NCBI RefSeq assembly: GCF_009696275.1
Contig: NZ_VUMI01000013.1
Span: 1 to 64,000, forward strand
DNA: 64,000 nucleotides
Source: Eisenbergiella porci
GTDB lineage: Bacteria > Bacillota > Clostridia > Lachnospirales > Lachnospiraceae
Direction of reading: 5' to 3'
This document shows positions 4,722-56,068 of this stretch, one piece after another. Made by a program: the position numbers and the translations under genes. Below the pieces are notes generated by a model, which was not told where the DNA came from, ran no database searches, and saw only the letters and a list, made by a program, of their open reading frames with translations. The stretch's first letter is position 1. Each line of letters opens with the position of its first letter.

Positions 4722-6101
4722 CTACAAGGTTCCTCTTTGTAGCAACACTATTGTCTCCACATGAATAGTCCCCGGAAACATATCACACCCTCTCCACTTC
4801 CTCACCTCATACCCCATCTCCCCCAAATACTTCAAATCCCTTGCCAGCGTAGCCGAATCGCAGCTCACATACACAATCCTCTCCGGCCGCATCCGCACCA
4901 TGGTTTCGAGGCACTTCTCATCGCACCCCTTCCGAGGCGGGTCCACCACAATCACATCCGCACAAACCCCATCCTCCTCATATTTCTGAGGAAGCACCTC
5001 TTCCGCCTTTCCGACGAAAAATTCCGCGTTTGTTATTCCATTCCTGGCGGCATTCTCTTTTGCATCAGCAATCGCCTCCGGCACAATCTCCACGCCATAC
5101 ACTTTCTTCGCTTTTTTCGCCAGGAATAATGAGATAGTACCAATCCCGCAGTACAGATCCCAAACTGTTTCTTCCCCGGTCAGGCCCGCATACTCTAAGG
5201 CCTGTCCATACAGCTTCTTCGTCTGTACCGGGTTCACCTGATAGAAAGACAGCGGGGATATCCGAAATACCACATCCCCAATACTATCCTCTATCTTCTC
5301 TTCGCCCTTCAAAACCCGCACCTTTTTGCCCAAAATCACATTGGTTCTCTCAGTGTTCACATTTACGGATACGCTGGTCATCCCGGGGATCTTCCACAGC
5401 TCCTCCGCCAGCGCTTTTTCCTCCGGCAGCTTGTTCCCATTTATAACGACGCAGGCCATGAGCTGGCCGCTGGCAAAGCCCTTTCTTATCAGCACATGGC
5501 GGATCAGTCCCTTTCCGGAAGTCTCGTCGTAGGCGGAAACTCCATATTTTTTCATATAGGCAAGGATGGTTTCCAGAACCGTCTTATTTTCCTCCACGCC
5601 CAGGGCGCAGTCCGTATTGGCGATGATGTTGTGGCTTCTTCCGGCGTAAAAACCCGTTACCACGTTTCCTTCTTTGTCATATCCAAAGGGGAACTGTGCC
5701 TTATTCCGATAGTGCCAGGGGTCTTCCATTCCAATAATCGGTTCCATGCAGGCATCGATGTGTTCCGGGGAAAATCCGCCGATTCGGATGAGGTTGTTCC
5801 TTATTTTATTCTGTTTAAATTCCAGCTGTTTATCATAGGAGAGCGGCTGAAGCTGGCAGCCGCCGCATTGGCGGTGGAAGGGGCAGGGGGGCTGAACACG
5901 AAAAGGAGAAGGCACAAGTACCTTCTCCAGCTTTGCATAGGCATAGTTTTTCTTCGCTTTCATGACCTTCACCTGTACCGTGTCGCCGATAACCGCATCT
6001 TTGACAAACAGAATAAAACCGTCGGTTTTTCCTATTCCTTCGCCTTCGATCCCGGTGTCCGTTATCTCCACTGTGAGAATGTCATTCTTTTTTATTTCCA
6101 T
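4722..6101 (-). CDS. rlmD: 23S rRNA (uracil-5)-methyltransferase RlmD/RumA family
   Basis: 459 residues. The N-terminal TRAM domain (1-60) is followed by the iron-sulfur cysteines C73, C79 and C82 with C165 as the fourth, then the SAM-binding fold (WDLYCGIGTISLFLA), the VVVDPPRKGC motif and the catalytic Cys in YVSCDSATLARDL. It methylates a uracil in 23S rRNA using SAM. Its 3' end abuts the conjugative element; the last residues LQRGTL after the conserved HVETIVLL may partly derive from the element. The start is 6 bases from the yhaM stop, so the two genes are probably cotranscribed. Confidence 0.93.
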   Translation of the reverse strand: MEIKKNDILTVEITDTGIEGEGIGKTDGFILFVKDAVIGDTVQVKVMKAKKNYAYAKLEKVLVPSPFRVQPPCPFHRQCGGCQLQPLSYDKQLEFKQNKIRNNLIRIGGFSPEHIDACMEPIIGMEDPWHYRNKAQFPFGYDKEGNVVTGFYAGRSHNIIANTDCALGVEENKTVLETILAYMKKYGVSAYDETSGKGLIRHVLIRKGFASGQLMACVVINGNKLPEEKALAEELWKIPGMTSVSVNVNTERTNVILGKKVRVLKGEEKIEDSIGDVVFRISPLSFYQVNPVQTKKLYGQALEYAGLTGEETVWDLYCGIGTISLFLAKKAKKVYGVEIVPEAIADAKENAARNGITNAEFFVGKAEEVLPQKYEEDGVCADVIVVDPPRKGCDEKCLETMVRMRPERIVYVSCDSATLARDLKYLGEMGYEVRKWRGCDMFPGTIHVETIVLLQRGTL

Positions 6102-6107
6102 CGTGCT

Positions 6108-7052
6108 TTACTCCATCCGTGTCATTCTGATGTTGGATTCAAATAATCTGTTGTAGCCAAGCCAGCCGGCATCCTTTGCATTCTGAAGGGCTTCCATGAA
6201 GGTTTCCATCTTTGCGTCGGTGTTGTCAGCCAGGTTCAGGGCAGCCGCTTCGATCAGGGCCGGTTTTTTGGGGGAGCCGTATTCGTATTCGCCGTGGTGC
6301 GCCAGGATGCAGTGTTTCAGTTCCGCTTCCAGAACCGGCGGGAAACCGGGTATTGTGCGGGCTTTCTGGCCTATCATTTCCGTTCCCATGACGATGTGGC
6401 CCAGAAGCTGGCCGTCATCGGTGTAGTCGTTTTCAGGGAAGAGGGAGATTTCTCTTGTTTTTCCGATGTCATGGCAGATGGCTGCCGTGATCAGGAGGTC
6501 TTTTTTCAGCAACGGGTAGGCTGCGCAGTAGTATTCGCAGAGTCTGGTGACGCTGAGGGTGTGTTCCAGAAGGCCGCCTACAAAGCCGTGATGTACGGTT
6601 TTGGCTGCGGAGGAGGAGCGGAAGGCCTTGATAAAGGCTTCATCTTCCACAAAGAAGGTTTCCAGCAGCTTTCTCAGGTACTGGTTTTCCACGCGGCCGA
6701 TAAAACCAAGCAGTTCTTTGTACATGTCGTCGATATTTTTAGCACTTACTGGAAGGTAATCGGCAGGATCGTATTCTCCCTCCTGGCAGAGGCGGACTCT
6801 TTTTACGCTGATTTGCAGAGAGCCCTGGAAGGAGTTGACATCGCCGTATACCTCTATGTAATCCAGGCTGTCGAATTCGGCAATGCCCGCGCTGTTGGGA
6901 TCCCAGATCTTGGCGTCAATGGTGCCGGTTTTGTCCTGAAGTATCACATTGTCGTAAGCCTTACCGTTTTTGGTCACCGCTGACTGCTTATGTTTGCAGA
7001 GGTATATATCGAATACTCTGTCGCCTTCTTTTAAGTCCTTTATATATTTCAT
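6108..7052 (-). CDS. yhaM: 3'-5' exoribonuclease YhaM family
   Basis: 314 residues. An N-terminal OB-fold nucleic-acid domain (GKAYDNVILQDKTGTIDAKIWD, about 30-52) is followed by an HD hydrolase domain with HHGFVGGLLEHTLSV, the metal-binding pair ICHDIGK and the later HH in LAHHGEYEYGSP. YhaM enzymes degrade RNA and single-stranded DNA from the 3' end in low-GC Gram-positives. Length and motif order match the family. It is immediately upstream of rlmD on the same strand. Confidence 0.93.
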   Translation of the reverse strand: MKYIKDLKEGDRVFDIYLCKHKQSAVTKNGKAYDNVILQDKTGTIDAKIWDPNSAGIAEFDSLDYIEVYGDVNSFQGSLQISVKRVRLCQEGEYDPADYLPVSAKNIDDMYKELLGFIGRVENQYLRKLLETFFVEDEAFIKAFRSSSAAKTVHHGFVGGLLEHTLSVTRLCEYYCAAYPLLKKDLLITAAICHDIGKTREISLFPENDYTDDGQLLGHIVMGTEMIGQKARTIPGFPPVLEAELKHCILAHHGEYEYGSPKKPALIEAAALNLADNTDAKMETFMEALQNAKDAGWLGYNRLFESNIRMTRME

Positions 7053-36219: not shown

Positions 36220-36492
36220 AAATCAAAGACCGTGCGTCCTGCTTCGAACACAAACCCATATGCGTTACCTTTACAGTTAACTCCGCCAGGCACCCTCACG
36301 GCACACGGAAAATTCTGCTTAGTGCTGCTTTGTTCCCAACCTGACACGGTTCGCAGACATCCGTTGCGTAAGACCCAAACTTCAACGCCACTTATAAAGG
36401 GCAGCCACACAGGCACAAGCCCTCGGCCGGACATCACCCCTGCTATAGCGGATTTCAGGTACAGGAGACCGCTAATCCCCCGGCTGCACGGT
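36220..36492 (-). ncRNA. ffs: Signal recognition particle RNA, large Gram-positive type
   Basis: About 273 nt. The conserved SRP apical core reads GTGTCAGGTTGGGAACAAAG then CAGCACTAAGCAG. The 5' part contains the Alu-domain signature GCGGTCTCCTGTACCTGAAA…CCGCTATAGCAGG, and the 3' part TGCCTGGCGGAGTTAACTGT…GTAACGC, all aligning with the Bacillus scRNA. The ends pair CCGTGC (36486-36491) with GCACGG (36230-36235). It is transcribed leftward from a near-consensus promoter, and TCTTTGATTTATATT follows the closing stem. The RNA guides Ffh to nascent membrane and secreted proteins. Confidence 0.93.
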
Positions 36493-53529: not shown

Positions 53530-54324
53530 TTATTCATTGTCCTGCAATTCTGTAATTTCTTCTGTCTGGGCGGAAGGTGCATCCTCCGCATTTTCTTCTG
53601 CCTGTATATCCTGCCCCGCCTGCGCGTATTCTCTGAGGGCCTTCTGCTTTTCTTCCTCTTCCTCACGGATGAAGGAAAGCGTCTCCAGCTCATCGGAGGT
53701 TTCCTCTTCCTCCTCCGGCTCAAAGCGCTTGAAAATCTTTACGAACAACATGCTTGCCACATAGGCCGGCACCGAAAATCCGAAAAGTATCAAAAGCGGC
53801 ATTGCCTGCAAGGTAACCAGAAGAAGCACTGTGGGAATCAGGTTGATGATAATTAACAGGATGGTCTTGGGCAGGTTCAGAACGCTCATCAGGAAGGAAT
53901 TCCTGATGGTATTCTTCACGGTGTTCTCAAACCGCGACAAAACCGGGAATATGTAAATCATCGTGAAAAGATAAATCACCGCCACAATCGTAATCAGCAC
54001 CATAATCACCTTGCCGAAGGATACGGTGGAATTCCTCAGTATCATGAAATCCCCAGCAAATATTATCCCTACCACAAGGGCAATCAGCCATATAATCGTT
54101 GCCTGCTTGAAGTTCTCCTTAAAGGATTTAAAATAACCCTTCACTATGTAGCACTCTTCATTCTTAACCATCTTAATGGTCATATAATAAAGCGCCGTCA
54201 TCGCATCCCCCGCCGTAATAATCGGTAAACAGCAGAGCAACGTTAAAAGATTCAGAATCATTAAATCCGCCATCTTTGACAAAAAAGTCATAAGAGGGCT
54301 GTCCAAGTTAAAAAATCTACCCAT
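53530..54324 (-). CDS. YesL-family (DUF624) membrane protein
   Basis: 264 residues. About five membrane segments (residues 15-185; MADLMILNLLTLLCCLPIITAGDAMTALYYM is the family signature), then a strongly acidic cytoplasmic tail (EPEEEEETSDELETLSFIREEEEEK…). YesL proteins are common near carbohydrate transport genes; function unknown. It has its own promoter at 54392-54420. The tail is much longer than in Bacillus YesL. Confidence 0.88.
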   Translation of the reverse strand: MGRFFNLDSPLMTFLSKMADLMILNLLTLLCCLPIITAGDAMTALYYMTIKMVKNEECYIVKGYFKSFKENFKQATIIWLIALVVGIIFAGDFMILRNSTVSFGKVIMVLITIVAVIYLFTMIYIFPVLSRFENTVKNTIRNSFLMSVLNLPKTILLIIINLIPTVLLLVTLQAMPLLILFGFSVPAYVASMLFVKIFKRFEPEEEEETSDELETLSFIREEEEEKQKALREYAQAGQDIQAEENAEDAPSAQTEEITELQDNE

Positions 54325-54420: not shown

Positions 54421-54449
54421 ATAAAATTTATATAAATAGGTATTGGCCG

Positions 54450-54693
54450 AGGAGATGGTTTGTGATTTTGGGGCGGCGGGGATGGCGGGTGGGGACCTGA
54501 GGGCAGGGGGAGGTTTTTTGCCGTACCTTTTCAGGCCATGGAGATGAAACTTAAAATTGTTGAAGGCTTTCTTGAAACAATTTTTGCCAAGGTTCATCGA
54601 AATATCCGGTCTGACTGGTACGGCAAAAACCTCCCCCTGCCCTCAGGTCCCCACCCGCCATCCCCGCCGCCCCAAAATCACAAACCATCTCCT
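54450..54693. repeat. Long hairpin element, copy 1
   Basis: Arms 54450-54527 and 54617-54693 are complementary over 77 bp with one bulged T. They enclose an 89-base core that itself pairs CAGGCC/GGTCTG, GATGAAACTT/AAGGTTCATC and AAATTGTT/AACAATTT. The whole 244-base block thus folds as one rod. The core is about 90% identical to that at 54979-55067, but the outer stems differ. It lies between the yesL promoter and copy 2. No gene is supported. Confidence 0.9.
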
Positions 54694-54959
54694 AGGGAGG
54701 AACGCTTCCAATATAAACCTGATATCCAGAAATACGTTTTCCACCAAATTTCAGGATATATATTACCAAAAAACTAAAAAGTCTGCCATTAATCATTCTT
54801 ATTATTTCCGAACAAACCCAAACCTTCCGCATTCTCCGCTTTTTTACCTGAAAAAATGTGCAGTAGGACGCGGCCACTTCCTCTGTGAGAGCCAGCGGTT
54901 CCTGTGGCGTAAGGCCGGGGCGGGCGTTGGGGCTGGGAAAGGGCGGCGGTCTGCGGGGC

Positions 54960-55086
54960 AGGTGTTTTTTCATGTACCTTTTCAGACCATGGAGATGAAA
55001 CTTAAAATTGTTGAAGGCTCTCCTGAAACAATTTTTTCCAAGGTTCATCGAAATGCCCGGTCTGACTGGTACATGAAAAAACACCT
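54960..55086. repeat. Long hairpin element, copy 2
   Basis: Outer arms of 19 bp (54960-54978 AGGTGTTTTTTCATGTACC and 55068-55086) enclose the same core as copy 1, with CAGACC/GGTCTG fully paired where copy 1 has a G-T pair. The block begins 4 bases after the stop of the leftward dehydrogenase gene and could end its transcript. The region 54694-54959 between the copies holds no recognisable gene. Confidence 0.9.
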
Positions 55087-55090
55087 CCCC

Positions 55091-56068
55091 CTACTCCACC
55101 AAATTTTTCAAAGTGAGGTTGTTTTCGAGGGCGTAGGCGTTTTCCAGGGTTTCGTGGGCGATGGACTGCATGGCTTCTACGGTGAAGAAACCCATGTGGG
55201 AGGTGATGAGGACGTTGGGGAAGGTGGTGAGCCTTGCCAGGTTGTCATCCTGGATGATTTCATCGGAGCAGTCCTCGTAGAAGAGGCCTTCCTCTTCCTC
55301 GTATACATCCAGGCCGACGCCGCCGAATTTTTTGGCCAGGAGGCCGTTGATCAGGGCCTGGGTGTCAATGAGGCCGCCGCGGGAGGTGTTGACCAGGTAG
55401 GCGCCGTCTTTCATTATGGATATGGTTTTTTCGTTGATGATGTGGTGGGTGTCCGGGGTGAGCGGGCAGTGGAGGGACAGAAAATCTGCTTTGGAAAGGA
55501 GCTCCTCCAGGCTGACGTATTGTACGTCCAGATTGGAGTTGGGGTAGGGGTCATAGGCGAGCACGTTCATGCGGAAGCCATGGAAAATGCGGATCATTGC
55601 CTGGCCGATTTTTCCCGTTCCGATGACTCCCGCTACTTTATGATACAGATCGGTTCCCATGAGGCCGTTGATATTCATGTTGAACTCACGGGTCCTTCCG
55701 TAGGCTTTGTGGGTAAAACGGTTGACGGTAAGCAGCATTGCCATGGCAAATTCGGCAACCGCTTCGGGCGAATAGCTGGGCACGCGCAGTACCGCTACTT
55801 TTCCTTTCGCAGCCCGGGTGTCCACATGGTTATATCCCGCGCTGCGCAGAAGCAGCGCCTTTACCCCCATTTCATGGAGCGTGTCTATCATCTGCGCATT
55901 CACATGGTCATTTACAAAAATACAGACGGCATCATAGCCCTTTGCCAGAAAAACTGTCTCCTCACTGAAGGGCAGTTCAATAAAATATATTTCATATCCG
56001 TAATCCTTCGCCATCGGTTCAAACCAGATGCGATCATACGGTTTTGTGCTGAAAAAAGCGATTCTCAT
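55091..56068 (-). CDS. D-isomer-specific 2-hydroxyacid dehydrogenase (D-lactate dehydrogenase type)
   Basis: 325 residues. The NAD-binding motif GVIGTGKIGQAMIRIFHGF lies at about 150, with catalytic Arg in NTSRGGLID, Glu in DVYEEEEGLF and His in ITSHMGFFT. The N-terminal MRIAFFSTKPYD is typical of fermentative D-lactate dehydrogenases, which reduce pyruvate to D-lactate. Its stop lies against a hairpin repeat element. Confidence 0.9.
   Translation of the reverse strand: MRIAFFSTKPYDRIWFEPMAKDYGYEIYFIELPFSEETVFLAKGYDAVCIFVNDHVNAQMIDTLHEMGVKALLLRSAGYNHVDTRAAKGKVAVLRVPSYSPEAVAEFAMAMLLTVNRFTHKAYGRTREFNMNINGLMGTDLYHKVAGVIGTGKIGQAMIRIFHGFRMNVLAYDPYPNSNLDVQYVSLEELLSKADFLSLHCPLTPDTHHIINEKTISIMKDGAYLVNTSRGGLIDTQALINGLLAKKFGGVGLDVYEEEEGLFYEDCSDEIIQDDNLARLTTFPNVLITSHMGFFTVEAMQSIAHETLENAYALENNLTLKNLVE

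Follow-up and report, generated by a model that had tools for sequence, protein, structure and literature searches.

A MITE-like palindromic repeat family of Lachnospiraceae with arms that evolve together around a conserved hairpin core

Introduction

Correia repeat elements of Neisseria are hairpin-forming MITEs of 100–160 bp that lie between genes and have short conserved termini and a TA target. The palindromic element of Lachnospiraceae described here is likewise by class a hairpin-forming intergenic MITE, but its termini vary and its core is conserved. We know of no description of this repeat family, and our searches of the literature on Eisenbergiella and Lachnospiraceae repeats, MITEs and the concerted evolution of palindromes found none that we recognised as such; Lachnospir-, Clostridi- and Firmicutes do not occur in the main text of the prokaryotic MITE review that we consulted.

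QMITE2 of Coxiella burnetii has target-site duplications of 7–9 bp and terminal inverted repeats (TIRs) of 23–29 bp (PMC10969869), and the present element resembles it in being gene-free, TIR-bounded, flanked by target-site duplications and intergenic. A stable stem-loop transcript counts as a further likeness, the fold of the present element being read from its sequence. Unlike QMITE2, the element consists, outside its core, almost entirely of inverted repeat; its terminal sequences vary by genome, its centre is conserved and its arms co-evolve. In short rRNA stems, template switching in DNA replication produces concurrent complementary changes on both stem sides and so maintains the pairing (PMC8794818); the present arms show the same kind of change, but they are mostly 60–155 bp long and belong to dispersed mobile repeats. 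Paired stem changes also mark quasi-palindrome mutation (PMC3820800), described in yeast quasi-palindromes rather than in mobile repeats. Long perfect inverted repeats occur as coding palindromes in the mitochondria of Nematomorpha (PMC6649704), whereas ours lie outside organelle coding genes, being mobile, intergenic and built around a conserved core. REP/BIME repeats with RAYTs (PMC2817692, PMC3733652) are high-copy intergenic palindromes that form composite pairs, as here, but the present family is without Y1 in two high-copy hosts, has target duplications and is much longer. What is unusual is that conservation is inverted, with a fixed core and free terminal repeats, and that the co-evolution of the arms has been measured.

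Results

Two direct copies in one intergenic region of Eisenbergiella porci

In the window (the whole stretch of DNA that was analysed, 64,000 nucleotides of the Eisenbergiella porci genome, G000), one palindromic element occurs twice, in direct orientation, in the intergenic DNA that separates a DUF624 gene from a D-2-hydroxyacid dehydrogenase gene, at 54450–54693 (copy 1) and 54955–55091 (copy 2), each with a conserved hairpin core of about 100 nt within its arms. The features, in window coordinates, are:

53530–54324, minus strand: flanking gene for a DUF624 protein (Pfam DUF624, 7.6e-20), the left border of the intergenic region
54450–54527, plus strand: left arm of copy 1 (78 nt), pairing with 54617–54693
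54519–54625, plus strand: conserved hairpin core of copy 1 (covariance model R1, 102.3 bits)
54617–54693, plus strand: right arm of copy 1 (77 nt), from arm pairing
54955–54978, plus strand: left arm of copy 2 (24 nt paired; G-rich sequence runs on unpaired further left), pairing with 55068–55091
54970–55076, plus strand: conserved hairpin core of copy 2 (R1, 112.6 bits)
55068–55091, plus strand: right arm of copy 2 (24 nt), meeting the stop codon of the dehydrogenase gene (55091–55093)
55091–56068, minus strand: flanking gene for a D-isomer specific 2-hydroxyacid dehydrogenase (Pfam 2-Hacid_dh_C, 1.6e-52), outside the element and marking the site

The original prediction of two copies with a common hairpin core was borne out: 54513–54637 matches 54964–55088 at 88% across 125 nt, and R1 matches the core in both. 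The arms differ between copy 1 and copy 2, yet pair inside each. Copy 1 has GCC/GGC where copy 2 has CAT/ATG, as had been predicted, and the claimed copy 1 arm of about 77 bp is present, its two sides matching at 77 positions with a single gap and without mismatch; the 24-nt arms of copy 2 align with 23 matches and one mismatch. A repeat search paired 54447–54518 with 54625–54696 at 99%, and none of 200 shuffles folded as well as copy 1 as DNA (z = −23.2) or copy 2 as RNA (z = −9.5). Copy 2 looks truncated, to judge from its G-rich left side, which is like that of other copies and has no right-hand partner.

The window site is empty in Lachnospiraceae bacterium CE91-St56 (G005) and Eisenbergiella tayi DSM 26961 (G012), both identified, like Anaerosacchariphilus polymeriproducens (G094), by identical flanks. 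The flank matches lie 90 and 37 bases apart, respectively, compared with 682 in the window, R1 gave no core match at the orthologous site in either genome, and the dehydrogenase flank has orthologous DNA at 81% in both.

Several further observations concern this site and its surroundings. A 12-bp direct repeat, TCCACCAAATTT, occurs at window 54740–54751 and 55095–55106, the second within the dehydrogenase gene end, beside copy 2; it may have been duplicated as the target when copy 2 inserted, or have arisen by chance. In G005, a solo arm (L251, G005:C1, about 6948313–6948370) lies about 55 bp from the orthologue of the window dehydrogenase gene, past its opposite end; taking the two species together, this gene has thus attracted the element family on each of its sides. 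The only copy matched in G338, a genome of another genus (L393, element 6001–6109), is just downstream of a D-2-hydroxyacid dehydrogenase gene, as is window copy 2, and this common neighbour is probably coincidence. The minus strand of the window carries a bacterial large SRP RNA at 36230–36491 (RF01854, 170 bits), the only Rfam match at gathering score in the window; the long hairpins, considered as members of a known RNA family, gave only miRNA-precursor matches below gathering score.

Copies are dispersed in genomes of the genus and family

Using a covariance model of the core (R1) built from 15 copies, and scoring at most 150 candidates per genome, we found matches in five of 13 genus genomes: 11 in the window genome, 44 in G005, 68 in G009, 10 in G012 and two in G006. 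An even sample of the family gave matches in 11 of 200 genomes, G000 and G009 included, with 1 to 19 each; these counts are lower bounds, because filters were stricter and only 19 candidates were scored per genome. In a sample of the order, four of 295 genomes matched, all from the same family, with G000 and G209 already counted. At least 118 stretches in the species-genome collection contain an exact pattern, and the titles among the 80 matches listed include Eisenbergiella, Hungatella, Roseburia, Anaerosacchariphilus, Lachnotalea and Lachnospiraceae, as well as 'Clostridiaceae bacterium', 'Clostridia bacterium' and one 'uncultured bacterium'. This covariance search of Lachnospiraceae, with copies counted per genome, had been proposed along with the original prediction, and it found other copies dispersed in genus and family genomes.

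The copies are intergenic and gene-free, and the element is about 130–400 bp long. We analysed 40 of the 44 matches in G005, 31 of 68 in G009, 10 of 19 in G187, 10 of 15 in G209, 10 of 13 in G094, seven of eight in G108, three of six in G202 and all 11 in G000, two of which are the window copies. By eye, the single-copy genomes G024, G037, G048, G338 and G383 have no neighbour gene in common. As for a phage or plasmid origin, one 110-base core gave no matches in 50,697 phage and 72,556 plasmid records; as for a viral one, one exact pattern gave none in viral contigs.

Terminal repeats, target-site duplications and core-less forms

Dispersed copies, target-site duplications and empty sites support the earlier suggestion of a non-autonomous palindromic mobile repeat. 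We consider it likely that the element is a non-autonomous, MITE-like transposable element of Lachnospiraceae whose arms are corrected by hairpin template and whose core is kept for its fold. In G005, 33 of the 40 analysed copies form one 260-bp family with 76–97% identity to a reference copy and the ends CTCAAACTTCGCAGG, an end found at 44 forward and 33 reverse places (≤1 mismatch; control, 0). The G187 ends TAGG(C/T)AATTGCGAAACT bound elements of 55, 62, 131, 200, 286 and 331–334 bp and occur at 78 forward and 74 reverse places (≤3 mismatches; control, 1 and 1). Both genomes therefore have terminal inverted repeats as in a MITE.

Target-site duplications were found in two lineages, of about 7–8 bp and 10–13 bp. 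A flank word of at least 7 bp is in common at 11 of 34 G005 copies, compared with 2.3% in swapped flanks, in a count that omits the six copies to which the arm finder gave arm 0 (L107–L110, L113 and L115); in G187 the figure is 6 of 10 copies, compared with 5.1%. A wider G187 set, picked from listed ends and with rows L380 and L387 being repeats, has flank words of 10–13 bp at 17 of 26 distinct elements, a figure without swap control. The flanking duplications to be looked for under the original prediction are thus present in G005 and G187, but the window genome has none of at least 7 bp at its 11 copies. The same search gave 0 of 8 in G209, 0 of 10 in G094 and 0 of 7 in G108, and only 2 of 31 in G009. 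Their absence from G000 and scarcity in G009 weigh against this reading and may reflect old insertions.

In G187, four core-less forms of 55 bp have flank words in common of 11, 12, 7 and 12 bp, and four of 131 bp have words of 10, 5, 10 and 10 bp; the covariance model found no core match in either form. Because these core-less forms carry duplications, the core is dispensable in cis for transposition.

Variant arrangements were also seen. Six G005 copies (L107, L108, L109, L110, L113 and L115) are about 16–18 bp longer than the rest. The two that were read, L107 and L110, have a small hairpin, GAATTACTTTAGTAATTT, in place of the basal core stem, and L107, L109 and L110 have flank duplications by eye. 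These longer copies would be a subfamily that moves although the base of its core is disrupted. The same genome contains palindromes of about 28–90 bp consisting of element ends only (L238, L239, L245, L246 and L249) and solo single arms (L241, L242 and L251), both of which are likely deletion products. One copy (L114, G005:C1:6352346-6352453) apparently lies within the loop of an intrinsic terminator and has an 8-bp duplication, TTACGGCC, by eye. Contigs of Clostridiaceae bacterium C65_88_CS_BP (L329, L289, L303, L272 and L327) carry divergent core pairs about 315–380 bp apart; in the three that were read (L329, L289 and L303), the pairs lie inside a composite of about 600–700 bp whose ends resemble TATTGTTGAGTGAGCAAAGG, and pair members have apparently exchanged variable segments of their arms.

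The core covaries and keeps its unpaired bases

An alignment of 105 core matches (A3; 104 distinct rows, 100 chosen sources), fitted to the covariance model, has 96.4% of its cells paired. All core helices covary: 29 of 32 pairs show a double change, and there are 873 double-change cells compared with 256.6 in shuffles, so the stem changes are compensatory, as originally claimed. A MAFFT alignment of 15 copies, with the structure taken from one of its own rows, is 96.6% paired and has double changes at 15 of 32 pairs. The unpaired bases G24, A26, A33, G104, G111 and A113 (A3 columns) are invariant in the 105 matches and form a G-N-A/G-N-A internal loop and an A-G mismatch. A second core type in G187 (five alignments) has the usually fixed GATGAG/CTCATC stem changed to a compensated AACGAA/TTCGTT, with the loops unchanged. 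Conservation of the core is partly a matter of ascertainment, because the model finds copies that have the core.

Wobble changes in the core comprise 37 distinct G-U and 14 distinct A-C cases (p = 0.0018), a count on which it bears that the A3 model scores wobble pairs as pairs; a MAFFT alignment of the G005 core has 17 G-U and 6 A-C cells. This excess suggests that the core is maintained as plus-strand RNA, against which counts the lack of strand preference of neighbour genes relative to the element (crude ORF picks). With no Rfam match at gathering score, the conserved core may represent a new RNA motif.

The two arms evolve together

Within copies the arms are near-perfect, with 3217 matches and 50 mismatches in G009 (median 103 bp, range 63–155), 799 and 16 in G000, and 2709 and 82 in G005. 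Between G009 copies, arm sequence is strongly different by eye. AT-rich hosts have shorter or less perfect arms (717 matches and 120 mismatches in G187, 214 and 50 in G209), and any arm correction would therefore not be uniform.

The alignment of the G005 family (A2) contains 27 of the 33 full-length copies, L107–L110, L113 and L115 being left out because they are longer. Nine disjoint closest pairs of the family with more than 90% identity have 25 arm changes compensated from Watson-Crick to Watson-Crick, 22 single changes and no uncompensated doubles, the pairing being the RNAalifold consensus fold of the same alignment and the disjoint pairs possibly having history in common. Independence predicts 0.88 compensated changes in these pairs, and slid pairings give 0.5. 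From high to low identity, doubles and singles number 6/16 (97% and over), 45/76, 93/55, 208/66, 1589/293 (80–85%) and 2596/649 (70–80%), in comparisons that are not independent. Per comparison, singles remain within about 1.3 to 4.1, not strictly flat, while doubles climb from 0.5 to 16.5. The two arms are thus shown to evolve together.

A one-base bulge is retained in 23 of the 27 copies. It was closed by a gain on the right side in L090 and L101 and by a loss on the left side in L078 (direction by parsimony), and the closest relatives of these copies, L091, L100 and L077, still have it. At the sole clear orthologous locus (L112 versus G012 C20, arms 141 bp), we found one compensated substitution and one mirrored indel, a deletion, alongside five arm changes and one arm indel that are confined to one side, and one uncompensated double, in a count that takes only pairs formed in L112. 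L107/L122 was not used as in-place evidence because the positions differ within one intergenic region, nor was L114/L153, because the orientations are opposite.

Pooled over three genomes, arm mismatches comprise 50 G-U and 71 A-C (p = 0.07), those common to related copies being counted repeatedly; the G005 family alignment alone has 29 G-U and 17 A-C in its arms (raw counts), the direction expected under RNA selection. Because paired changes are too frequent in near-identical copies and the pooled mismatches lack a wobble excess, the pattern points to DNA-level copying between arms and not to selection alone, which would have to act strongly on each of some 80–150 arm pairs. The simplest reading is that template-guided correction between the arms maintains their pairing. 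The selection on pairing that was originally claimed is plausible in the core, with its RNA-like wobble excess; in the arms it is unlikely to act alone.

A structured RNA selected throughout, whose transcript needs the whole hairpin with its arms paired, for example as a double-stranded target of RNase III or of a protein, seems to us unlikely. Strong covariation in both core and arms, the wobble excess of the core and the arm wobble of the G005 family would all follow from it, but the pooled arm mismatches have no G-U excess, paired changes are already present in copies less than 10% diverged, and arms reach 155 bp, a length at which single pairs should count little. Moreover, there is no orientation bias to co-directional neighbours (crude ORF picks), and core-less copies have spread. 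Selection on long double-stranded RNA possibly accounts for part of the signal.

Less probable still is that the arms are made perfect at each insertion, with transposition copying one arm into the other. This would give arms that are near-perfect within a copy and different between copies, as is seen most strongly in G009; however, the G005 bulge and several mismatches are common to many copies at different sites and therefore came through transposition uncorrected, and L112/G012 has a compensated change and a mirrored indel at one fixed locus.

Terminator function and the search for a transposase

We think it very improbable that the element is an ordinary bidirectional transcription terminator grown long-armed, and the 'processed terminator' of the original prediction is not supported. 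Some copies lie about 30 bp or less from an ORF end (crude ORF picks), the right arm of copy 2 reaches a stop codon and L114 sits in its apparent terminator loop. Against this, the window copies have no U-run after the core on either strand, a scan gave two terminator-like hits, both at left arms, compared with a shuffle mean of 1.7, orientation to co-directional neighbours is unbiased (32 versus 38, p = 0.55; crude longest-ORF picks) and 29 of 122 copies lie between divergent gene pairs (crude ORF picks). The neighbour tally uses longest ORFs, and for each of the two window copies its choice was an antisense ORF that is spurious, so its counts are rough.

The element has no coding capacity, as in a MITE, and the earlier observation of no protein-coding support stands: when the 1308 ORFs flanking 122 copies are clustered by mutual similarity, without family-library names, no cluster reaches more than 10 loci. 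A non-exhaustive search that scanned ends at 20 end-only places in G005 found no autonomous transposon or transposase. At L238 in G005, inverted ends 1.8 kb apart enclose an ORF with a Transposase_31 match of 19.6 bits (cut-off 21), a weak lead to a transposase; a similar ORF lies beside one of 122 copies and in no other of the 20 end-only loci, among which ORFs were examined in L238 only. The Pfam run comprised five proteins. None of 16 DDE_Tnp_1 loci, considered as a partner, carries element ends (≤2 mismatches). We give almost no credence to a REP/BIME-type repeat moved by a Y1 (RAYT) transposase, which would suit high-copy intergenic palindromes, some in inverted pairs in larger composites, and the Y1_Tnp matches in G000 (3) and G005 (8), but not the zero Y1_Tnp matches in high-copy G009 and G187, the target-site duplications, or whole elements of 260–290 bp (G005 and G187) against REPs of 20–40 bp (PMC3733652).

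Discussion

Under template-guided correction, the palindrome would become single-stranded in replication or be extruded as a cruciform, and one arm could then template synthesis or mismatch repair of the other, that is, template switching. A new arm mutation would be either reversed or copied across to the opposite side, and by such reversal or copying of each mutation the arms would remain near-perfect while their sequence drifts. Selection on the fold of the central core, probably in the form of plus-strand RNA, would preserve this core and its invariant unpaired bases. Our proposal that the inverted repeats are fast-evolving and renewed by arm-to-arm copying, and that the central hairpin is preserved as a new structured RNA, is tentative, and we hold it with somewhat less than even confidence.

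The evolution of RNAs and genomes poses the unsolved question of how long stems stay perfectly paired without broken intermediates. Since this family offers many near-identical copies with countable single and compensated changes, the rate and direction of arm-to-arm correction are measurable in it. The family also carries a warning: covariation is usually taken to prove that an RNA is functional, yet it may arise in palindromic mobile DNA without selection. If the proposed mechanism is true, the many copies of this family would preserve a natural record, over long times, of how bacterial DNA undergoes template switching.
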